Positions 561 to 24,504 of a stretch of 37,013 bases of DNA are shown here, in pieces. Positions within the stretch are counted from its first letter, which is position 1; each line of letters starts with the position of its first letter. Source of the DNA: a virus; IMG/VR virus record IMGVR_UViG_3300037808_002224, positions 1 through 37,013 of that record; one strand, 5' to 3'. Under the pieces are notes generated by a model, which was not told the DNA's origin, did not search any database, and saw only the letters and a program-made list of their open reading frames with translations. The translations under genes and the position numbers were made by a program.

Positions 561-1844
561 ATGGTGTTTAATCTGTTTAGAAATTTGATGTTTAAATCTT
601 TGGTGAATAAAAACTCCATTGTTTATTTGATGAATGATCCGGGTACACCTAATATCAAAAAGGTGATTCCAGTTCCCGACATGTTGTCCCCTCCTTATAA
701 GGTTAAGGGATATACTGGCGGCGGGCACGAGTTAAACACCACTGGTGGTCGAGCCGCACAAACTTTTGCAACTATCACGGAGACTTTAAAGTGGGTTCAA
801 AAACATGCCCCGAAACCATTGCCTCGTTGGGCAACTGGCTTACCTCTTGTTGTTGATCCAGAAGCTGGGCAAGACCTTAACGCATATTACTACAGGAAAG
901 GAATGAAGTTCTTTTATTCTGGCAACGTCTATACTTCACTTTCTTCAGATGTTGTTGCTCACGAATTGGGACACGCAGTTTTCGATTCCTTTAGGCCAGA
1001 CACATGGAATGTTACATCATTAGAGTTGTGGTCATTCCATGAAGCGTTCGCAGACATAGTGGCGATCTTAACTACACTGCAACACAAAGAAGTAATTGAT
1101 CTTATGCTAAGGTTCCAATATTTAAGAAAAGACAATTTGGCTTCTCGTGTTGGAGAACAAATTGGAAAAGCTATTTACAACATAAACAAAGGAGAAGATG
1201 GCAGAAAGTCTACTCATCTTCGCAATGCTTCTGAAAAGTTTGAATACGTTAATCCAAACAGCTTGACAAAAAGGGGCAAGCACGACACCATCCATGCAGA
1301 ATCCCATAGCTTTGGCCGTATAATGTTGGGTGCTCTTTACACTATCTGGTATAGGATGTACGAAGAGAATGTTCTGAGGGGATTGAAACAACATCATGCT
1401 TTAGAAGTCTCTAGGGATTTGTTCTCTAAATACTTACTGGTGGCAATTACAGCCGTCCCAAAGACTCCTCGTTTCTTTCGATCATTTGCAAATACTTTAA
1501 TGTGGGTGGCTCGTAAAAATGATCCAATCAATCACAAAATCATGCTTGATGTTTTCACAGAATGGAAAATTGTTAAAGTTAACGAAGTGTGGGGAATGAG
1601 AATTCAATCAATGCCAACAGACGGAGTAGAGGTAATTAAGCTTTCTGATGAGATAGAGATAGGAACTTTGTCTCACAATCCTCTTTATGAGATTGATATT
1701 GAAATTCCAGCCAACAACAGAGAGGATGGTTTGGCAGACGCCAAGCTGTGTTTAGATTTGTTGCACCAGTCCAACAGTGTTGGCAACGATGAATCAACAC
1801 CTTTTGAAATTCAAGACAACAAGTTAATCAGAACCCACATTTAA
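561..1844 (+). CDS. Gluzincin-type zinc metalloprotease (M4/M36-like)
   Basis: This 427-residue protein carries a clear zinc-protease signature, HELGH at residues 134-138. About 23 residues later comes SFHEAFADI, whose Glu161 fits the third zinc ligand of gluzincins; thermolysin-family enzymes have a comparable E-A-x-A-D after HExxH. H134 and H138 would bind zinc and E135 would act as general base. No signal peptide is visible, so the enzyme is either cytoplasmic or carried in the virion. The C-terminal 270 residues match nothing I recognise. The start is supported by AGGAGA four bases before ATG. The next gene follows after 8 bases, so the two are probably co-transcribed. The catalytic class is well supported. 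The substrate, which might be a virion protein, host protein or cell-wall protein, is unknown. Confidence 0.82.
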   Translation: MVFNLFRNLMFKSLVNKNSIVYLMNDPGTPNIKKVIPVPDMLSPPYKVKGYTGGGHELNTTGGRAAQTFATITETLKWVQKHAPKPLPRWATGLPLVVDPEAGQDLNAYYYRKGMKFFYSGNVYTSLSSDVVAHELGHAVFDSFRPDTWNVTSLELWSFHEAFADIVAILTTLQHKEVIDLMLRFQYLRKDNLASRVGEQIGKAIYNINKGEDGRKSTHLRNASEKFEYVNPNSLTKRGKHDTIHAESHSFGRIMLGALYTIWYRMYEENVLRGLKQHHALEVSRDLFSKYLLVAITAVPKTPRFFRSFANTLMWVARKNDPINHKIMLDVFTEWKIVKVNEVWGMRIQSMPTDGVEVIKLSDEIEIGTLSHNPLYEIDIEIPANNREDGLADAKLCLDLLHQSNSVGNDESTPFEIQDNKLIRTHI

Positions 1845-4070: not shown

Positions 4071-4346
4071 ATGAAGATATATACTCTTATGGACTTTAAA
4101 CAATGGCTTCAAGAAAATTTTGGACCAGCCCATACTGGCGGTATGGCTCCACCAAAACAAGTTCCCGTAACACCCGGCGATCTTAGAAAAGACCCAGATA
4201 ATGCTCTAGGTGTTTCTGGAACAAGAGGGAATCCCAACCCTTCTGTAAATCCAAGTCCCACAGCCAAACAAGACGATATAGAGTCTAATGGGGAAGATTG
4301 CTACGCTTGTCGCAAAATGAAAAAGAAAATGAAGAAAAAGCCTTAA
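4071..4346 (+). CDS. Small protein with L-x-E N-terminal peptide
   Basis: A 91-residue protein, starting at the ATG at 4071 or, by analogy with its relatives, at the ATG at 4089 (MDFKQWLQENFG). The N-terminus carries F-K-Q-W-L-Q-E. This resembles the start of the protein at 23833-24492 (MRTFEQWLRET) and, more loosely, the capsid-targeting peptide of T4 internal proteins (MKTYQEFIAEA). The middle is rich in Pro, Gly, Asn and Thr and probably disordered. The end carries a CYAC pair and a very basic tail (RKMKKKMKKKP) that could bind DNA. A small, basic, head-targeted DNA-binding protein would fit, but this is inference. No clear Shine-Dalgarno is seen. Its stop shares TTAA with the convergent gene. 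Confidence 0.6.
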   Translation: MKIYTLMDFKQWLQENFGPAHTGGMAPPKQVPVTPGDLRKDPDNALGVSGTRGNPNPSVNPSPTAKQDDIESNGEDCYACRKMKKKMKKKP

Positions 4347-4837: not shown

Positions 4838-4896
4838 AATAATAATCCTCTATATATCATAGCAACAGATTGCTAATTTACCAAAAGGATTTACAT
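4838..4896. promoter_or_regulatory. Divergent spacer with CTATATATCAT element
   Basis: A 59-base divergent spacer. CTATATATCATAG lies at 4850-4862; read leftward it contains GATATATAGAGG. The rightward protease gene has its own AAGGA (4885-4889), seven bases before ATG. The element is centred so that it could serve either direction. It is part of the recurrent set. Confidence 0.4.
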
Positions 4897-5796
4897 ATGC
4901 GAAAAAGATTTTTAATGATACTTGCCGCTCTTTCTATGGTTGCTCTCAGCTTAACGCATGGAGTAGATGAAACTGCCCCAATAAATAATGTTGAATCTAC
5001 GGCTCCTATGCCACTTGTCAGTGACCCGTTAGCTGTTAGTGACAACATTGCTCCTATAGAACAAAGAGGAATTGAGTATAGAAAGTGGCTTGCAAAAGGC
5101 GTTAAAGTTTCAGCAGGTGGTTCTTCCGGTTCAGGGACAATTATTTATTATGATAAAAAAACAGGTTGGGCTTATGTTCAATCATGCGGGCATCTCTGGA
5201 GTGGGGACATGTCTGCTGAAGAAGGATTAAGAAAAAATAGAGATGCTAAGATTACAACTTGGTATCACAATAAAAGAAAATTGGACGAACCAAAATCATA
5301 TAATGCAGAAGTTTTATTTTACAGCAATCACAGAAACCCTGACATCAGCTTATTAAGATTTAAGCCTGATTGGGATGCAGAGTTTTTTCCTGTCGCACCA
5401 GCAGATTATGTTTTAAGAGAAGGTGTTAGAGCACATTCAATTGGTTGCGATGGTGGCAGAGAAGTTGCTCACTACGATGTAAAGATCGTAGGAGAAAGAG
5501 GCGGCTCGTGGAAAGATTTAGTTACTACCAACAATAGCCCTCGACCGGGACGATCAGGTGGTGGACTCATCAGTAATGATGGATATTATATTGGCATATG
5601 TTGGGGAACGTCTGATTATGACGGTAGCGGCAATGGATACTTCACTCCATTGAGCGAAATTCACAAGGTAATGAATCGAGAAGGATATGGATGGCTCTTG
5701 AGAGTTTCCGCATCCTTAGCTAGAGAAATTCCAATTGTTGATAGAAATAATCAACAAGGAACATATCCTAGAGAATACATTGCCGTACCGGGCTAA
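4897..5796 (+). CDS. Secreted trypsin-like serine protease
   Basis: A 299-residue protein starting at the ATG at 4897, chosen because AAGGA lies seven bases upstream and the N-terminus then begins as a classic signal peptide (MRKRFLMILAALSMVALSL). The catalytic triad of chymotrypsin-fold proteases is visible: His99 in SCGHLW, Asp149 in NPDISLLRF and Ser220 in RPGRSGGGL. A probably disordered Pro/Ala-rich linker of about 35 residues joins the signal to the domain. The protein should be exported to the periplasm or beyond. Phages rarely encode such enzymes. It may process a host surface protein or another secreted phage product, but that is speculation. It is a single-gene rightward unit, with a 13-base gap to the convergent nuclease gene. 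Confidence 0.82.
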   Translation: MRKRFLMILAALSMVALSLTHGVDETAPINNVESTAPMPLVSDPLAVSDNIAPIEQRGIEYRKWLAKGVKVSAGGSSGSGTIIYYDKKTGWAYVQSCGHLWSGDMSAEEGLRKNRDAKITTWYHNKRKLDEPKSYNAEVLFYSNHRNPDISLLRFKPDWDAEFFPVAPADYVLREGVRAHSIGCDGGREVAHYDVKIVGERGGSWKDLVTTNNSPRPGRSGGGLISNDGYYIGICWGTSDYDGSGNGYFTPLSEIHKVMNREGYGWLLRVSASLAREIPIVDRNNQQGTYPREYIAVPG

Positions 5797-6657: not shown

Positions 6658-7686
6658 ATGATTGACTTTGAAACTTTCCTTGAATGGGCAGAAGATAAAT
6701 TTGGCGACGTTAAAGTTAAAGGCAACGAAATACGTGCCAATAGTATCTTCCATCCTACCGACAACGACACTAAATTTCGTTTGTGGATGAGTCCGTCTGG
6801 TGGAAAGCACGGCAGAGAGAATGGAGTCTATCATTGCTTTGACACCGATAGAAAAGGAACGCTCCTTGGCCTTATTATGATGGTTGAGAAGTGTCCCTTT
6901 GAAGATGCCTTAGAGATTGCCGGTGGAACAACTTTAACTGCTGATCTTGAAGGTCAAATTGACGCCTTCTTTGCAAATAAAGAAGAGGATACTGTAGAAG
7001 AAATAGAGAACAGTATTCGGCTTCCTGATGATTGCTATTATATTGACGAAATCAAAGACAATAATCGAACAGCAATTGAAGCGGCAATGTATTTAGAGAC
7101 ACGTAAAATCCCCACAAAGGGATTGATGGTGTGTCTCTACGGTGCATATAGAGATAGGATCATCATTCCATACTATGATCGAAGTGGAGAGCTTATTTAC
7201 TTTAACTCTCGAACTCTCGTGGATAAAGATTGGATTCCAAAATACAAAGCTCCTCCCAAAGAGATTGGCGTGGGAAAAGAAGATGTCATTTACATGCAGC
7301 ACTGGCCAGAACCGGGTAGCACCATATATGTGACAGAAGGAGAGTTTGATGCCATAGTTCTTATAATCTGTGGTTTTAACGCTGCTGCTTGTGGAAGTAA
7401 AAATCTTTCCGAGACACAGATCAATTATTTGAGAGATTATGATGTTGTTATTGCTTTAGACCAAGATAAAGCTGGTCAAAAGGCTCTCATCACTTGGTAT
7501 GAGCAATTTAAAGACAATGGGGTGAATGAATTTGCTTATGTCTCTCCGCCCAGAGGTTTTAAAGATTGGAATCAGCTTTACGAAAAAACAGACTTACCAA
7601 TAGTCAGAGCTTTTATAAACAGAGAAAGAAAGATTTTCTCCGAAGAACAATACGTCGATATGACGTTTAATTTTCTGAAGAGTTAA
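6658..7686 (+). CDS. DNA primase-like protein (Toprim)
   Basis: A 342-residue protein with a Toprim domain: TEGEFDAI (Glu227) and ALDQDKAGQKAL (Asp268, Asp270) give the metal-binding E...DxD pattern of DnaG-type primases. The N-terminal 80 residues keep the frame of a primase zinc-binding domain (IFHPTDND ... NGVYHCFDTD ... GTLLGLIMM). However, most of the metal-binding cysteines of the usual CHC2 motif are missing and only the one in YHCF remains. The region between (RDRIIIPYYDRSGELIYFNS) is the typical primase core before Toprim. It would make RNA primers for lagging-strand synthesis, like T4 gp61. There is no helicase domain, so a separate helicase is needed. AAGG eight bases upstream supports the start. 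Confidence 0.85.
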   Translation: MIDFETFLEWAEDKFGDVKVKGNEIRANSIFHPTDNDTKFRLWMSPSGGKHGRENGVYHCFDTDRKGTLLGLIMMVEKCPFEDALEIAGGTTLTADLEGQIDAFFANKEEDTVEEIENSIRLPDDCYYIDEIKDNNRTAIEAAMYLETRKIPTKGLMVCLYGAYRDRIIIPYYDRSGELIYFNSRTLVDKDWIPKYKAPPKEIGVGKEDVIYMQHWPEPGSTIYVTEGEFDAIVLIICGFNAAACGSKNLSETQINYLRDYDVVIALDQDKAGQKALITWYEQFKDNGVNEFAYVSPPRGFKDWNQLYEKTDLPIVRAFINRERKIFSEEQYVDMTFNFLKS

Positions 7687-8165: not shown

Positions 8166-10403
8166 TTAGTCTAGGTCTCCAAGCAGTTCATCAAATTCTC
8201 CCCACTTTTGGTTAATTTGATCAGATGTTATATCGTTAGGAGTTTCATCTGGCAAATCTTCTAGCTCAGGTATTTTTACATCTGCATCTGCATTTGCTGA
8301 CTCCACTTCCTCTCCTGTCAATTTAGCATATTGTTCTTTGGTCATATTCTTTAGAGCATAATCTTCTTTTCCTTTTTTGTACATAAGATGTACTGTATGC
8401 CCATCATCGTCAAGGACAACTTGGGTTTTCTTCCAATCTTTTTTTCGATGCTTCCAGCTAATTGTTCCATCATCTTCAACCTTTATCCTATCCTTGCCTT
8501 CTTTCCATTCTTTGGGGTTAATGGCTCTTGAATTTCTTGATTTAACAATTTTTTTAGCTTCCTCATCGCTTAACTCTGGATGATCATGTGGGCCACTTGC
8601 CTTCTCTGGTTCTGACGTTGTAGTTGTGTCGTCAGGTTCTGGTGTTGTAGTTGTGTCGTCAGGTTCTGGTGTTGTAGTTGTGTCGTCAGGTTCTGGTGTT
8701 GTAGTTGTGTCATCAGGCTCTGGTGTTGTAGTTGTGTCATCAGGCTCTGGTGTTGTCTCGTCATCGCCCCTAGCTCGTGCGGCCAACCAAGCGTCTGCAT
8801 CATCACCACCGTCATCACTCTTGTATGGATCGACCTCAGCGTCAAAGTCTTGAGTGTCTTGGTCTACATCTGAATCATCTTCAAAGTCATCATAGTTGCC
8901 TTCGCCATCTCCACGATCTATGTCATGATCTTCATCGTCTGCATGATCATTTTCTTCTTCGTCATCTTGATCATCTTGATCATCTTCGTCATCTACATGT
9001 TCTTCTTCGTCATCTACATGTTCTTCTTCGTCATCTACATGTTCTTCTTCGTCATCTACATGTTCTTCTTCGTCATCTAATTTCGGTTTGTCTTTAGGTT
9101 CTGGAACAACTGATGGTTCTGGTTCACCAATGTGTAGTCGGCTCTCTTCTTCAGCGGCTAGTGCGGCTTTCCATTTAGCGTTAGTAATATGAACTTCAAC
9201 ATTTTCTTCTTCGTCATTTTTGCCTGTCAATATGTGTGTTCTTGATTTCTTGTCGTATCTGTCATATTTTACTATATGTTCTCCATCGTGTTTGTCCTTA
9301 ATGACCATAGTGCCATCATCTGACTGATTCCCTATTGAGTTCACAAGACTCAACGGGCGAACATTTTTGCTTTTAATGATATTGCTTGGATTGTCAACGA
9401 CGGTAGGTTCCACATCATCTATAGGTGTATTGTCTTTCAATTCTTCTTCATCGTTTTCAATATCTTCAGCATCTTTTTCTTCAACATCATCGTTTGCATT
9501 TGGCACAGGCACAGCAGGCACGCTTCTTTGTGGTTCCCCTCTTACATCGCTAAATGTCTTTAAAGCATGCTTGGCAATAATGTTAAGAAGTTCTGTCTTG
9601 TGTTTACCGAACAACCCATTAATTGTTCGAGTTGCATCATCAAAGCTTTCTTTAAGAAGGTCTTCCAATTCTTGTAGTTTTGATTCTTGAGCAAAGAGAT
9701 CAGGATGCTTTTGAGCATCTTTCCAAGCATGGGGGTCTTGTTTATATTTGGGATCATTAGCATAACCACGTTGCAACGCATATCGTCTCAGATTTTGGTC
9801 ACCACCCGTTGCACCTTGCCAAACACTCTTGAGCCAATTCTTTGCTCTTCCAAACACTCCCGGTTTTTGTCCTCCAGCACTAGCAGAAGGAAGAGGACCA
9901 GCGGTCCTATTTTGACCAAATGTTTTAATCAAATCGTCAAGAAGATTATTGAAAACAACATCTACTTCGCCTTTGACAGCATCTGCTGCTTGTTGGTTTA
10001 CAGTTTGAAAAGAAGCCCAAGGATTTACATATTTTGAACTAGATGCAGGTTCGGGACTAGCTGGCATTGCTTCAGCACCAGCATTTTCTACAATTTGCTT
10101 AACTTGATATTTTGCTTCATTTATAAGCAATCGAGCTTGAGCACATTCTTCTTCCAGTGCTTGGCGAATAACCAAGGGAAGCTGCTTAATCATTCTGTGT
10201 TCTTGAATTGTTTTCCATTTTGATGTGGAAGTAACAGCGTTTTCACAGAAATCAATTAATCGTTCAGCATGCTGGGGAGACAAAATAAGACTGGTAACTT
10301 CGGATGTCCAGCTATTAAAAACATCATCAATGTCTTCAACAACCAGTTTTTCGTTGTTATTATTACTTTCTTTTAATCTTCTGTAATCCTTATAACTGAG
10401 CAT
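8166..10403 (-). CDS. Large acidic repeat protein with L-x-E N-terminus; candidate head scaffold or internal protein
   Basis: A 745-residue protein. It opens with MLSYKDYRRLKES, an amphipathic peptide ending L-K-E that resembles T4 capsid-targeting peptides. A helical N-terminal third (residues 20-290) has Gln, Ala and Lys. A long Asp/Glu-rich centre follows, containing tandem DDEEEHV heptads. Then come five nine-residue TTTTPEPDD units and a folded-looking C-terminal part with SYKDW-like basic strands (ISWKHRKKDWKKTQVVLDDD) and an acidic tail. No enzyme motif is seen. Length, acidity and the N-terminal peptide suit a prohead core/scaffold or packaged internal protein, but this is inference. 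GGGAG six bases before ATG supports the start, and TATATAG lies about 30 bases upstream. Confidence 0.68.
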   Translation of the reverse strand: MLSYKDYRRLKESNNNNEKLVVEDIDDVFNSWTSEVTSLILSPQHAERLIDFCENAVTSTSKWKTIQEHRMIKQLPLVIRQALEEECAQARLLINEAKYQVKQIVENAGAEAMPASPEPASSSKYVNPWASFQTVNQQAADAVKGEVDVVFNNLLDDLIKTFGQNRTAGPLPSASAGGQKPGVFGRAKNWLKSVWQGATGGDQNLRRYALQRGYANDPKYKQDPHAWKDAQKHPDLFAQESKLQELEDLLKESFDDATRTINGLFGKHKTELLNIIAKHALKTFSDVRGEPQRSVPAVPVPNANDDVEEKDAEDIENDEEELKDNTPIDDVEPTVVDNPSNIIKSKNVRPLSLVNSIGNQSDDGTMVIKDKHDGEHIVKYDRYDKKSRTHILTGKNDEEENVEVHITNAKWKAALAAEEESRLHIGEPEPSVVPEPKDKPKLDDEEEHVDDEEEHVDDEEEHVDDEEEHVDDEDDQDDQDDEEENDHADDEDHDIDRGDGEGNYDDFEDDSDVDQDTQDFDAEVDPYKSDDGGDDADAWLAARARGDDETTPEPDDTTTTPEPDDTTTTPEPDDTTTTPEPDDTTTTPEPDDTTTTSEPEKASGPHDHPELSDEEAKKIVKSRNSRAINPKEWKEGKDRIKVEDDGTISWKHRKKDWKKTQVVLDDDGHTVHLMYKKGKEDYALKNMTKEQYAKLTGEEVESANADADVKIPELEDLPDETPNDITSDQINQKWGEFDELLGDLD
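8608..8756. repeat. 27-bp in-frame tandem repeat (TTTTPEPDD)
   Basis: Five 27-base units lie at 8608-8634, 8635-8661, 8662-8688, 8689-8715 and 8716-8742, with a partial sixth to about 8756. They differ at only a few bases (GTC/ATC and GGT/GGC changes). They lie inside the 745-residue protein gene and encode nine-residue Thr/Pro/Glu/Asp units. The near identity at DNA level points to recent slippage or recombination expansion. Confidence 0.9.
8985..9080. repeat. 21-bp in-frame tandem repeat (DDEEEHV)
   Basis: Three identical 21-base units lie at 9001-9021, 9022-9042 and 9043-9063, with partial units on both sides. They encode Asp-Asp-Glu-Glu-Glu-His-Val heptads within the same acidic protein. 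Upstream copies of GATCATCTT form a shorter, older-looking repeat of Asp-rich codons. Confidence 0.88.
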
Positions 10404-10955: not shown

Positions 10956-11975
10956 TTATCCCACTGTAGCATTTTCTGCTGCGATCAAACATCCTCTTGC
11001 TACAGAATAGAGAGGGTCGTTTGGTCGAATAACTTTACCAATGTCAATTGGTAGGTCAGCGTTTTTCAATACTTTCGTAAACAATTCATCAAATCCCGGT
11101 GGAGACGATGTTCCACCAGCAATAATAATATCGACTGGATGATCCAGTCTTGCTTTCTTATCAGAGTGATCAATCAAACCTTTTTTGATTGTTCCGACAG
11201 TTTTTTCAATCATTAGGTTATATTGAGTAATAATAGCTCTTTCAACTAATGATGTTGCTTCTTTCCCTAAATCTATGCTTTCTTTTTGTTTGTTGATAAA
11301 GGTCACAGATTCGCCTGTCGCTCTAGCTGCTTGCTTGTCAATCCAATCACCACTGTTTACAATAGAGAAAGTAAATACTGGTGCTCCATACATGGCAAAG
11401 CAAAGATTGACCATACCTGCACCAAAAGAAATTCCAATGCCAGTGAATGCTTTCTCAGCAAGTTCTGCATAAACGAGAGCCAAGGCTTCATTAATGGGCA
11501 TGGGAGTAATTTTGAATCCATCAGGCTTGCTTCTATAAGCTTTAAAGATAGCTTCTAGTATCTTACCGTGATAATCAGCATCTGTTTCTGCGTTGATAGC
11601 ATTGGCTGGCACACTGTAATAAAGAAGATCACCTTCATTTTGCACATCGTCTAAAAGACTGTGCATCATGATATTCATGATTTCAAAAGCATCTCTTTCT
11701 TTGGGGTTAACACAACCATCTTTCATAGGTCTCTTAAGCTCTATGGACGGCATAGTGTAAGCCATATTGATAGCTGCTTCGCCAAGGGCATAAGCAACAT
11801 CGCCTCGTTCAATCAATGGAACTCCAGCGGTCTTCATCATATTGAACACAAATCGATTCTCCAATGGCATCTCTAAGAATGCATTGACTTCTCTTTTGTG
11901 AATGAAGTTACCATCGCTGTCTCTGTGACAGGCTACTAAGTTATATGTGCCGCAATCGAAACCAAATGCACCCAT
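10956..11975 (-). CDS. Actin-like ATPase (ParM/MreB superfamily)
   Basis: A 339-residue protein of the actin/Hsp70/ParM ATPase superfamily. Phosphate-1 is GFDCGTYNLV (Asp7, Gly9, Thr10). Phosphate-2 is GISFGAGM (181-188). The adenosine loop is IIIAGGTSSPPGFDELF, with Ala286-Gly-Gly-Thr. Length matches bacterial actins rather than chaperones. Such proteins form filaments that segregate or position DNA; some phages and prophages encode them. The strong AAGGAGATG ribosome site supports the start. The gene lies 21 bases after a small DNA-binding protein gene and before the tandem DUF5659-like gene, so all three may form a unit. Filament formation and role are inferred from the fold. Confidence 0.85.
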   Translation of the reverse strand: MGAFGFDCGTYNLVACHRDSDGNFIHKREVNAFLEMPLENRFVFNMMKTAGVPLIERGDVAYALGEAAINMAYTMPSIELKRPMKDGCVNPKERDAFEIMNIMMHSLLDDVQNEGDLLYYSVPANAINAETDADYHGKILEAIFKAYRSKPDGFKITPMPINEALALVYAELAEKAFTGIGISFGAGMVNLCFAMYGAPVFTFSIVNSGDWIDKQAARATGESVTFINKQKESIDLGKEATSLVERAIITQYNLMIEKTVGTIKKGLIDHSDKKARLDHPVDIIIAGGTSSPPGFDELFTKVLKNADLPIDIGKVIRPNDPLYSVARGCLIAAENATVG

Positions 11976-15739: not shown

Positions 15740-15915
15740 GGGGCATAGCCAGAGGCTATAATCTTCCAGACATCTAAGTCTGGCTTCTCGAAACTAAAAT
15801 GTTCTACTTGGTCACTGGTAACACACATTCCCATGTGGTTCCAATAGTCGTTAGCATAATCAATATAAGCTTGATTAATTTCTCTTTCTTTTTTCTTCTT
15901 TAGCCAATGGTTCAT
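15730..15915 (-). CDS. Small hypothetical protein
   Basis: A 61-residue protein whose ATG overlaps the stop of the upstream gene as ATGA, so it is translationally coupled. It begins with a basic helix (MNHWLKKKKEREINQAYIDY), followed by a Trp/His/Met stretch and an acidic middle. No family is recognised. The ATGA junction and operon context support a real gene. Confidence 0.6.
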   Translation of the reverse strand: MNHWLKKKKEREINQAYIDYANDYWNHMGMCVTSDQVEHFSFEKPDLDVWKIIASGYAPQL

Positions 15916-16262
15916 TTCTTTTTCTCAATATTTACACAGAATCTTGGAATTGAAAATGTTCCTGACTCTGTTAAAATCGTTACACGCTTTCCATAGCTTT
16001 TCGCTACTGTAGCGTTAGATTTGAATTCGGTTAGAAAAACTTCTTTTTTTGCCCCGCTCATGTCTTCCATCCTTTCAAGGATTTTGGAATCACTTACTTT
16101 GGGGTATACTTTTGAACCTAATGTTTTGTCTATGTCTGTTTCAATTTTGTTTAAATTAAGTGTAGGTAGCCCACTCTCATTTTCATCCAACCATTTCTTA
16201 AACTGGTAGATTGAAAAGCCGGGGCTTGATTCGTTGGTCTTGTTGTCTGCTTCGTTGCTCAT
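15912..16262 (-). CDS. Hypothetical protein with FKKWLDE segment
   Basis: A 116-residue protein of unknown function. After 16 polar residues it has FSIYQFKKWLDENESG, similar in pattern to the F-x-x-W-L-x-E peptides that begin two other proteins here, but not at the extreme N-terminus. The rest has short helices (SKILERMEDM, KEVFLTEFK) and a basic beta end (KRVTILTESGTFSIPRFCV). It is coupled by ATGA to the next small gene and lies 23 bases after the DUF115-like gene in the same leftward unit. Confidence 0.6.
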   Translation of the reverse strand: MSNEADNKTNESSPGFSIYQFKKWLDENESGLPTLNLNKIETDIDKTLGSKVYPKVSDSKILERMEDMSGAKKEVFLTEFKSNATVAKSYGKRVTILTESGTFSIPRFCVNIEKKK

Positions 16263-17149: not shown

Positions 17150-18960
17150 TTATTGCACGGCACTAACATGAAGCACTGTCTTTGGTTCCCATCTTCATCT
17201 TCAGTCATAAGAGAATCCATTTCAATTTTCATCTCAATAGGGCTTCCTCGGTAAACCATTTCTACCTCTGGCTTCTCAGGCATTACCAATTGGATAATGC
17301 TTGGAATGTTGCCCATAACTTCAATAACATCAGGAATTCCTGTTACTCTGATTGAATCAGGTAGCTCAACATCAAGCTTAAGATTCTTCGGTGCTTCTAA
17401 TTGTATTGTTTCTGGTAAGTTGTGCTCCAAAGAAATTCTCTCTGGAATCTTCATATCACTTACAAGACTAATAGAGTCTGGCAATGGTGTTTCTGGCCCT
17501 AAGATTCTTATGTCTTTCCCAAAGCCAACAGGAGTTTCTAATTTCAAACCTTTAGGGAAATCTTTTGCCGCCTCTAGCATGATCTTTTCCGGTCCTTCAT
17601 ATCGAATTTGAAGGTCTTCTTTGCTAGGAGCAATCAATTCAATGGTCTCAGGGATGCCTACAGGCTCATACATCACGGTAGGCTCCTCTAATAGAGCTTT
17701 GAATTCATCCCCAAACTCATTGATGATATCTGGATCAACCAATTGCTTCTCTACCCTACTCATTGGCTGTGTTAGTGCTACTTCTACTTTAAGTTCCGGT
17801 TGCCCTGTCCAATCAATGCCAATTTCTGGTGTAATCCCCCAATCAATACCAACCAATGAGATTGGGATATCAATAGAAATCACAGACGGCAACGGAGGGT
17901 CAATAATGATTACTGAAGGAATCTCATCAATAGTAACGTGACTTACCATGATGATTGGGAAATCATTTTCAATCACAACATGACTAACCAAGATAATTGG
18001 AAAGTCTAGGCCAGTGATATTTACATTGCTTACCGTATTGATGTCTGGGCCAATAATTATAGAAGGAATAGGCCCAACTTGACCATCGATAGATACACAA
18101 GGCAAAACCACAGCAGGGATATTAAGTTCTGGCTCTGGAACTTCACAAGGAACACAAGTGAAGTCAGGGAATTCAATATCTTCAGGAAATGGAATCGTAA
18201 CAACTGGAGGTGCTGGTGCTGGAGGTTCTGATGGATTAACACGCTCAGGTGGGGTTAAGATAATCTGACACTGATCGTTGGCTATGGTGAGCACTGGATC
18301 AATGTTAGAGTTTAAACTATATCTGTGGGTTCCAGACAAATCGGTTGTTGTAAATTGACCATCTCCAAAATCTAATCGGAAAGATGAAAATACTCCGCCA
18401 ACCGCATTAACTTCTACCAAGAACTCAGCTAAAATTCCAGTAACAGGATCATTTTCTGTGATTGTGAAATTAAAAACAACATCAGGACATGTATAGTCAT
18501 CAAAGATAATGGCTAATTCCGCCAGATTTCTGATCCTCCAGTCCAACGTGGGTTGCAACTCTGTGAAGTTCTCTCCAACAAATTTTTCAATTCTACAAAT
18601 TGCTTGAACTAATTGATTGTGATGCTCTGCAATAACAAAACTTCTAACCATTACTCCAGCGTGATTAAATTGTGTTTTATCGCCACCAAGATTTCTTCCA
18701 ATTCTAATGAGCTTTTCAACCTTATTGTTAGCATCTTTTTCAACGCCATCATAATAGAAAAGCTCACCCTCAATTGTTCCAAAGCCATTGTCAGCCCATA
18801 TTTCTGCCTCAGTATCCTTGACAGGCACAATGTTTATTTCGCTGGACCAAGGCTGGTTGTCTGTACGCAGCTTCGACTCAGTTGTGTTGTGAACCAAGAA
18901 TAGTGTTTGGTCAGAGTCGATTCCCTCTGGAAACGCTGGCTCTGGTGGAAATGGAAACAT
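17146..18960 (-). CDS. Fibre/adhesin protein with shared N-terminus and P-x-x-I repeats
   Basis: A 604-residue protein, the last of three tandem paralogs. The shared N-terminal domain includes SDQTLFLVHN and AEHHNQLVQAICRIEKFVG (His113-His114). A degenerate PKD-like module (FRLDFGDGQFTTTDLSGTHR) follows near residues 195-215. From about residue 240 onward the protein is a series of short Pro/Ile/Val units: FPIILVSHV twice, then IPETIEL, LPDSISL, IPERISL, LPETIQL, LPDSIRV, IPDVIEV and IPSIIQL. This pattern suits an elongated beta-solenoid or beta-prism shaft. It ends with CFMLVPCNK. No enzyme motif is seen. It is probably a tail or capsid fibre, coupled to the DUF115-like gene downstream. Confidence 0.72.
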   Translation of the reverse strand: MFPFPPEPAFPEGIDSDQTLFLVHNTTESKLRTDNQPWSSEINIVPVKDTEAEIWADNGFGTIEGELFYYDGVEKDANNKVEKLIRIGRNLGGDKTQFNHAGVMVRSFVIAEHHNQLVQAICRIEKFVGENFTELQPTLDWRIRNLAELAIIFDDYTCPDVVFNFTITENDPVTGILAEFLVEVNAVGGVFSSFRLDFGDGQFTTTDLSGTHRYSLNSNIDPVLTIANDQCQIILTPPERVNPSEPPAPAPPVVTIPFPEDIEFPDFTCVPCEVPEPELNIPAVVLPCVSIDGQVGPIPSIIIGPDINTVSNVNITGLDFPIILVSHVVIENDFPIIMVSHVTIDEIPSVIIIDPPLPSVISIDIPISLVGIDWGITPEIGIDWTGQPELKVEVALTQPMSRVEKQLVDPDIINEFGDEFKALLEEPTVMYEPVGIPETIELIAPSKEDLQIRYEGPEKIMLEAAKDFPKGLKLETPVGFGKDIRILGPETPLPDSISLVSDMKIPERISLEHNLPETIQLEAPKNLKLDVELPDSIRVTGIPDVIEVMGNIPSIIQLVMPEKPEVEMVYRGSPIEMKIEMDSLMTEDEDGNQRQCFMLVPCNK

Positions 18961-19226
18961 TAATCATCCTCTTGTATTGTTACTTCTGGTATTCCTGTGG
19001 CATCAGCGGAAGAATTAATTTTAAATGCATTGTTCCAATTGACTTTAAGCTTTGACTCAAATTCAATATATTGAGGATATTTTTGATAAAATGCTGAGAC
19101 TCCATTCGAGGTGTAAAATCCCCACCCATCATAGGAGACTTTATTGCACCATCTTTGAAGAGCTAATCGAGCTTCTTCTAATCGCTTCAATCGATCATCT
19201 CTTATTTTAGTCCAATGATTAACCAT
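18960..19226 (-). CDS. Small protein between adhesin paralogs
   Basis: An 88-residue protein joined to both neighbours by TAATG-type junctions, so it must be translated with them. The N-terminal 30 residues form a basic helix (WTKIRDDRLKRLEEARLALQ). An aromatic stretch follows (DGWGFYTSNGVSAFYQKYP), then an acidic tail ending EDD. It may be a chaperone or linker for the adhesins, but only the position supports this. No family is recognised. Confidence 0.65.
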   Translation of the reverse strand: MVNHWTKIRDDRLKRLEEARLALQRWCNKVSYDGWGFYTSNGVSAFYQKYPQYIEFESKLKVNWNNAFKINSSADATGIPEVTIQEDD

Positions 19227-23832: not shown

Positions 23833-24492
23833 TTACTGGCCGAAAACACTTCTTTGGGATTGTGGGCCAAATTGAGTAAGTTGCTTTAAATCTCCAACTG
23901 CTAATTGGGCAGCATTTCCTACTTTGTCAGCAATGTGTTCTCCTTCAAATCCATCGGCAGAGAATGTATTTTCCCACCCAGAATTCCAAGGTTGGGTTAT
24001 ATCAACTTCATTAGGATATCCTTTGCCATTTTTAATTCCTCTTGCAAGAGCATTTAAATATTGATTAAATTGATGGCTCTCTCCTCCTTCTAAGTCTTTA
24101 AATCCATTAACCATTCTTTGCAAAAATGCATCTCGCTGTGTAGGGTTGTTGTGATAATGTTTCGCTGTTTGAACTATTTGGTTGAACGAATCATTCATCG
24201 CAGATGGCATAGGAAGCCGTTTGGTATTATTTATAAAGTTTTGCTCACTAGCTGGATCAATGACATCTTCAGAAGATTGTTGATTCTGTTGAGCAGGTTG
24301 ATTCTGTTGAGCAGGTTGATTCTGTTGAGCAGGTTGATTCTGTTGAGCAGGTTGATTCTGTTGAGCAGGTTGATTGGGCTGCTGAGGTTGTGCAGGCTGA
24401 CCAGCTTGTGGAGTGGGTATACCGGCTCCTACATTAATGGAGCTTGTGCCGGGTACGCCAGTTTCTCTAAGCCATTGTTCAAAGGTTCTCAT
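23833..24492 (-). CDS. Gln-rich repeat protein with L-x-E head-targeting-like peptide
   Basis: A 219-residue protein. Its first residues MRTFEQWLRET line up position for position with T4 internal-protein targeting peptides (MKTYQEFIAEA), including Glu at position 10 after Leu-x. A disordered linker of Pro/Ala/Gln/Asn follows, made of five PAQQNQ units. A folded-looking domain of about 150 residues comes next (INNTKRLPMPSAMNDSFNQI; FLQRMVNGFKDLEGGESHQF). If the peptide works as in T4, the protein would be packaged in the prohead and cut after Glu10. This is inference. The ATG has no normal ribosome site: CTATATAAAGGT runs directly into it. Confidence 0.7.
   Translation of the reverse strand: MRTFEQWLRETGVPGTSSINVGAGIPTPQAGQPAQPQQPNQPAQQNQPAQQNQPAQQNQPAQQNQPAQQNQQSSEDVIDPASEQNFINNTKRLPMPSAMNDSFNQIVQTAKHYHNNPTQRDAFLQRMVNGFKDLEGGESHQFNQYLNALARGIKNGKGYPNEVDITQPWNSGWENTFSADGFEGEHIADKVGNAAQLAVGDLKQLTQFGPQSQRSVFGQ
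24280..24369. repeat. 18-bp in-frame tandem repeat, five exact copies
   Basis: Five identical 18-base units start at 24280, 24298, 24316, 24334 and 24352. On the coding strand each encodes six residues (PAQQNQ). There are no base differences between copies, so the array expanded recently or is kept uniform. It lies in the linker of the Gln-rich protein and presumably sets its length. Confidence 0.92.
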
Positions 24493-24497
24493 ACCTT

Positions 24498-24504
24498 TAT
24501 ATAG
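24498..24504 (-). promoter_or_regulatory. CTATATA element abutting the ATG of the Gln-rich gene
   Basis: Read leftward the sequence is GAGCTATATAAAGGT followed immediately by ATG (24492). If TATATA is a -10 element, transcription would start at or next to the ATG, giving a leaderless message. This differs from the other copies of the motif, which leave room for a short leader. Confidence 0.35.

Follow-up and report, generated by a model that had tools for sequence, protein, structure and literature searches.

Three otherwise unrelated proteins encoded by one stretch of viral DNA begin with short, amphipathic peptides that end in L-x-E, which raises the question of whether these N-termini serve as an address for the phage head. 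The stretch analysed (the window, 37,013 nt) comes from a huge phage, is a piece of a virus record with undefined ends and is collinear with LR756511.1, a 595-kb uncultured phage, across approximately 30 genes (at 538-570 kb of the latter). The window gene products include baseplate proteins and a volactin-family actin (10956-11975, minus strand; PF25216, E 1.3e-69), of a family known from Haloferax. Used as a query of IMG/VR, the actin retrieved at least 27 related huge-phage loci, several on contigs of 220-530 kb, and its position within a structural cluster is kept in at least 27 such loci. Ten relatives (LR756511 and nine IMG/VR contigs found via the actin) were read whole or nearly whole; these include the close pairs G005/G006 and G003/G010 and are, thus, not ten independent samples. 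Two peptidase genes of the window adjoin structural genes and are kept in nearly all relatives: a thermolysin-like M4 peptidase (561-1844, plus strand), with a Pfam match under the cut-off, and a trypsin-like peptidase that probably has a signal peptide (4870-5796, plus strand).

The original prediction placed the peptides at 24492, 4089 and 10403, with a similar segment inside the protein at 15912-16262, and a check of the ORFs bears out all four positions as well as the L-x-E end of the three N-terminal peptides (LRE, LQE and LKE, respectively). The proteins start with MRTFEQWLRET (24492, minus strand), MDFKQWLQENFG (4089, plus strand) and MLSYKDYRRLKES (10403, minus strand), in which the aromatic pairs are F4/W7, F3/W6 and Y4/Y7. 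A PSSM trained on other genomes only scores these N-termini at 10.2, 19.5 and -1.5 bits, respectively. The chance expectation at 10 bits or more is approximately 5 genes per 4,700, or 0.05 per window of approximately 45 genes, whereas two are seen; the tags at 24492 and 4089 exceed chance well and both are strong. The features are compiled in Table 1.

Table 1. Proteins, tags, tag-like segments and promoter-like boxes of the window.
Feature	Position	Strand	Basis
Tagged protein with Gln-rich (AQQNQP)n linker, 219 aa	23833..24492	-	ORF
N-terminal tag MRTFEQWLRE (F4, W7, L8, E10); predicted cut after LRE	24463..24492	-	Held-out PSSM 10.2 bits; positions as in T4 capsid-targeting sequence
Late-promoter-like TATATAAA directly 5' of ATG	24496..24503	-	Sequence; class enriched upstream of tagged genes
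Short tagged protein with Lys-rich C-terminal tail, 85 aa	4089..4346	+	ORF; start corrected from promoter position
N-terminal tag MDFKQWLQE; predicted cut after LQE	4089..4115	+	PSSM 19.5 bits
Late-promoter-like TATATA, 5 nt 5' of ATG	4078..4083	+	Sequence; class enriched upstream of tagged genes
Acidic repeat-rich protein, 745 aa; positional family adjoining actin gene	8166..10403	-	ORF; homolog in L016; syntenic orthologs
Probable variant tag MLSYKDYRRLKE (Y4, Y7, LKE)	10368..10403	-	PSSM -1.5, not significant alone; clear tags on syntenic orthologs in several relatives
Internal FKKWLDE, residues 21-27 of a 116-aa protein (15912-16262)	16182..16202	-	Orthologs keep FxxW at residues 11-25, without L-x-E

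The true start of the Lys-tailed protein is 4089 rather than 4071, as a TATATA box lies 5 nt upstream of the 4089 ATG. For neither this protein nor the Gln-rich protein, in which the (AQQNQP)n units form a repeat array, were relatives of the body detected in IMG/VR or the ten relative genomes. The 745-residue protein had been assigned to the same set, an assignment that synteny upholds and that its own N-terminal score does not. Syntenic orthologs beside the actin gene have aromatics 4 and 7 and, in most cases, an L-x-E (loci L018, MISFKEYRLNEA; L041, MLGFKEYRNRLTEA; L027, MKRFKDYLVEKN; and L016, MLSYKEYRRLKES), and the counterpart N-termini at this place in four relatives are given by MISFKEYRLNEA, MLGFKEYRNRLTEA, MKRFKDYLVEKN and MRTFAEFRKRMVVES. 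The N-termini at the same place in LR756511, L028, L031 and L035-L040 are without the tag. The 10403 protein is probably tagged cargo. Its acidic body includes two in-frame repeat arrays, (DDEEEHV)n and (PEPDDTTTT)n. The FKKWLDE segment, which had been likened to the tags, lies internally in a conserved family (FxxW at residues 11-25, no L-x-E) and is judged to stand outside the system. A primase N-terminus (MIDFETFLEW, 6658-7686; score 5.3) was dropped, as it resembles ordinary primase sequence.

If the peptide is a head address, further such N-termini and a gp21-like prohead protease are to be expected in the genome; since the window is only a fragment, both were sought in the relatives. All ATGs in the first 60 codons were scanned with internal Met residues as the control, the use of longest-ORF starts alone having given false negatives (0 for contig G001). 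The tag numbers depend on rough gene counts, obtained by greedy ORF picking and not by a trained gene finder. In the relatives, F-x-x-[WFY]-[LMI]-x-[EN] follows 75 of 8245 N-terminal ATGs compared to 8 of 11386 internal Met residues (p 5e-20). When the window is left out of the PSSM, 167 genes reach 10 bits or more (5.3 expected), and cross-validation with training and test genomes kept separate recovers 86 tagged genes versus 3.7 expected and 49 versus 1.2. The consensus start, M-x(1-3)-F-x-x-[W/F/Y]-L-…, often with L-x-E after it, is found at 9 bits or more on 180 proteins of the ten relatives, with 6 to 30 tagged genes per sequenced contig; the anticipated further peptides are present on dozens of unrelated proteins per genome. 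The tag sits in the first ~10 residues, with F at residues 3-6 by construction, and the aromatic that comes after F is W in 39, F in 17 and Y in 9 of the 65 training tags. Probable false positives include the ribonucleotide reductase matches (MTGYTWLTEAS in G001 and LR756511) and one glycosyltransferase-17 match. Recent spread of a single DNA cassette is ruled out, as the tag DNA is only ~50% identical within a genome. This low identity, together with the use of all six Leu codons, indicates that selection acts on the peptide.

The bodies of the 180 tagged proteins make up 136 unrelated families, and the proteins have nothing in common but the tag. Approximately two thirds of the tagged proteins have no homolog in other genomes, compared to 46% of the untagged proteins. 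The bodies tend to be a little more basic than the average protein, and Lys-rich tails (as in the 4089 protein) are ~4-fold over-represented. Recognisable bodies include an Acb1-like 2H phosphoesterase, P-loop kinases, a C39 peptidase, a PolyA_pol-type nucleotidyltransferase and an FMN reductase. The kinase, C39 peptidase and DUF5662 families have members both with and without the tag; as untagged homologs of several bodies occur in other genomes, the tag is a module that is gained and lost. One tagged protein (G006, 142656-143222) has a second tag-like segment, ESFNSWLINNHPEIMEE, near the C-terminus that resembles its own N-terminus. A second tag, C-terminal and of the form (K/R-rich)-[YFHW]-R-S-I-D-D-[PDEN]-W, is carried by many unrelated small proteins of G001 (IMGVR_UViG_3300049215_000771, locus L017) and G003, with examples at G001 58150-58437, 453411-453812 and 517817-518273 and at G003 46019-46330 and 177667-177978. 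In G001, the string RSID is found within 14 residues of the C-terminus in 18 genes, versus 3 elsewhere. Several of the proteins with this tail are otherwise no more than a piece of the gp23 major capsid protein, and no such tail was seen at the C-termini of the other genomes and controls.

The tags often close with a putative cleavage site. Among 126 tagged proteins, L-x-E falls at F+4, F+5 and F+6 in 34, 17 and 16 cases, compared to ~2 per position deeper in the protein. Part of the F+4 excess stems from the pattern used for training, an effect that is far smaller at F+5 and F+6. Within F+3 to F+9, L-x-E is found in 73 of the 126 tags; some of the remaining 53, many of which end in WLEN, may enter the head unprocessed, be cleaved at a different motif or not be substrates. 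In T4, Asp at position 10 prevents cutting and leaves targeting unaffected (PMC9026906); on this ground, the guess may be made that tags with no nearby L-x-E are packaged and left uncut. In four families with diverged members, the tag varies in length or sequence, with the E of L-x-E directly followed by the conserved body: (i) LSE/KTTRAG, LNE/KTARAG and LTE/KTKRTG; (ii) LQE/SNLQDLY, LNE/SSLNDLY and LDE/SSLNDLY; (iii) LVE/AVETSRY, LNE/VSSAGRY and LEE/VADSTRY; and (iv) LIE/QRAYLG, LNE/ESQYFG and ITE/QKEYLA (the slash marks the boundary). Conservation that starts at this point is the pattern that a processing site would produce.

A candidate enzyme for this cut is encoded alongside the capsid genes. 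The window itself has no prohead protease match, a result that carries no information given that the window is a fragment. The expected gp21-like enzyme was found as an S77 prohead protease in LR756511 (E 6.7e-28, ~12 kb past the place that matches the left end of the window) and in 8 of 12 relative contigs; the four contigs in which none was found are all partial (61-160 kb). By size, the protease is present in 8 of the 9 searched relatives above 150 kb, plus one smaller. The gene is flanked in the relatives by a scaffold-like gene and the gene for gp23. The major capsid proteins (gp23) of eight relatives have an N-terminal part with invariant FLNE and [I/F/M]NE sites, which is consistent with a protease of L-x-E-type specificity. 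LR756511 also encodes a second, weaker S77 protease-like gene (242621-242989, minus strand; E 3.5e-9) far from the head cluster.

Tagged genes are further set apart by the DNA that precedes them. A box with a TAWATA core that ends 3-9 nt 5' of the ATG is found at 92 of 180 tagged versus 263 of 2983 untagged genes (odds ratio 10.8, p 1e-43), and only 3 of the 92 boxed tagged genes also have a Shine-Dalgarno-like sequence. An unsupervised motif search regains the box, mostly 4-5 nt from the ATG, with no -35 element and a pyrimidine at -1. Both strong tags of the window carry it (4078-4088 and 24493-24503). T4 late promoters have TATAAATA at -10 and no -35 element, a geometry that would make the message begin at the ATG. 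The boxed genes, including the 263 untagged ones, look like sources of leaderless late messages. An archaeal-type TATA box, considered given the volactin gene, is ruled out by the spacing, as the box ends 4-5 nt 5' of the ATG. The box is rare in T4 (2 of 131), RaK2 (5 of 305) and LR745208 (0 of 268). Since it lies outside the coding sequence, it provides independent support for the tag.

The T4 capsid-targeting sequence is that of the internal proteins IPI, IPII and IPIII (Mullaney and Black 1996, reviewed in PMC9026906). In IPIII, the first ten residues are enough for packaging, and mutations reveal that residues 4 and 7 govern targeting and residues 8 and 10 processing (PMC9026906). The constant residues of the huge-phage tag (aromatics 4 and 7, L8/E10) occupy exactly these places and, thus, the tag is filed as a variant of the T4 sequence. 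When T4 (KJ477686), which was absent from the training, is scanned with the PSSM, IpIII scores 7.5 bits (rank 4) and IpII 5.1 (rank 6). The top T4 score (11.6) belongs to gp61.1 (18952-19116, minus strand), which is annotated as hypothetical and starts with MKTFKEFIKE; gp61.1 may be an unrecognised T4 head cargo. PSSM matches are only at chance level in Klebsiella phage RaK2, in which the S77 protease is present, and in LR745208, whose volactin is distant and in which there is no S77 match; the tag is, therefore, not a feature of all large phages, nor does the protease by itself predict it. Apart from the processing site, which only part of the set has, the sequence-level features of T4 capsid targeting are shared by the set. 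With the mutation-defined residues matched (PMC9026906) and the searches for further peptides and the protease both positive in the relatives, the peptide is very likely a T4-type capsid-targeting sequence, as originally proposed, and the 24492 and 4089 proteins are its predicted cargo, which would bind the scaffold, be cleaved and packaged, and be injected.

Other roles can be envisaged for a shared N-terminus. The tagged proteins could be temporary helpers of the prohead core that are degraded or expelled before DNA packaging, not delivered cargo; T4 core proteins gp22, gp67 and gp68 are destroyed in this way (PMC9026906) and some of the tagged proteins are short and basic, but many bodies are enzyme- or effector-like, vary between genomes and would be useless in a core, which renders this fate unlikely. 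The peptide could alternatively be an address for a place other than the head, such as a replication compartment, the membrane or the tail. Location is not readable from sequence, and 53 of the 126 tags are without a protease site; the residue-by-residue match to the T4 tag, the bodies that start at L-x-E, the late-type promoters and the gp21-like protease adjoining gp23 all argue against such an address, which is regarded as quite improbable.

The strong association with a box 4-5 nt 5' of the ATG could also mean that the signal lies in the nucleotides that open leaderless genes, promoter and first codons together, and not in a peptide. Yet half of the tagged genes are without the box, boxed untagged genes are by definition without the peptide, and the codons vary freely (six Leu codons, TTT/TTC, and W/F/Y exchange at one site), such that a signal of this type is very hard to credit. 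Chance likeness among a few amphipathic N-termini, which the 10403 peptide would allow as it is not significant alone, has a negligible probability and is already refuted for the set by the genome-wide enrichment with internal-Met controls, the cross-validation and the negative control genomes.

A pathway of head targeting is proposed that joins the observed tag, its enrichment and modularity, the promoter link, the protease and the conservation from the predicted cut in four families. Proteins that start with M-x(1-3)-F-x-x-[W/F/Y]-[L/I/M] would be made late in infection, from T4-late-like promoters. The two aromatics (at approximately positions 4 and 7) would bind the internal scaffold of the growing prohead and draw the protein in, after which the gp21-like S77 prohead protease would cut after the L-x-E at the tag end and release the mature protein in the head, to leave for the host together with the DNA. 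Thereby, a large and changeable set of proteins probably rides in the particle and enters the host. Whether, in this clade of huge phages, the combined module of promoter and tag (TAWATA box, ATG at or close to the start of the transcript and targeting peptide) amounts to a general protein-delivery system, in which tens of fast-changing effectors and enzymes are head-packed, injected and act before phage gene expression, is an evenly balanced matter; on the same reading, and with the same even chance, the cargo would include the Acb1-like anti-CBASS phosphoesterase and RNA-repair-type enzymes. Among the hundreds of proteins with obscure roles in huge phages, a readable tag would indicate, from sequence alone, which ones travel in the particle and act in the first minute, with host take-over and counter-defence as likely roles. 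The T4 capsid-targeting sequence would then no longer be peculiar to T4 but belong to a general system, which provides a list of candidate injected proteins.

No description of the huge-phage tag system was found in the open-access literature. The closest counterpart is T4, with which the huge phages share a targeting peptide of ~10 N-terminal residues (aromatics at 4 and 7, L/I at 8 and E at 10), unrelated and often basic bodies that differ among related phages, and an S77 prohead protease. Unlike T4, in which 2 genes reach 9 bits in the same scan, the huge phages have 6 to 30 tagged genes per contig. Their tags vary in length, favour W at position 7 and have N as commonly as E at position 10; the box is directly 5' of the ATG, and the bodies are enzyme-like, as judged at the sequence level. 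In the phiKZ-like giants (SPN3US and phiKZ), many head proteins similarly lose N-terminal propeptides to the prohead protease gp245 and are then ejected into the host (PMC10052503, PMC5694885). By contrast to the huge-phage tag, these propeptides are mostly of 111-254 residues and have another cleavage motif, and the portions of the accounts drawn on here describe no short shared tag. Phage P1 likewise loads counter-defence proteins, DarA and Hdf, at head assembly and delivers them with the DNA; unlike the huge-phage set, these are described as a few dedicated proteins (PMC12810830, PMC9024508).
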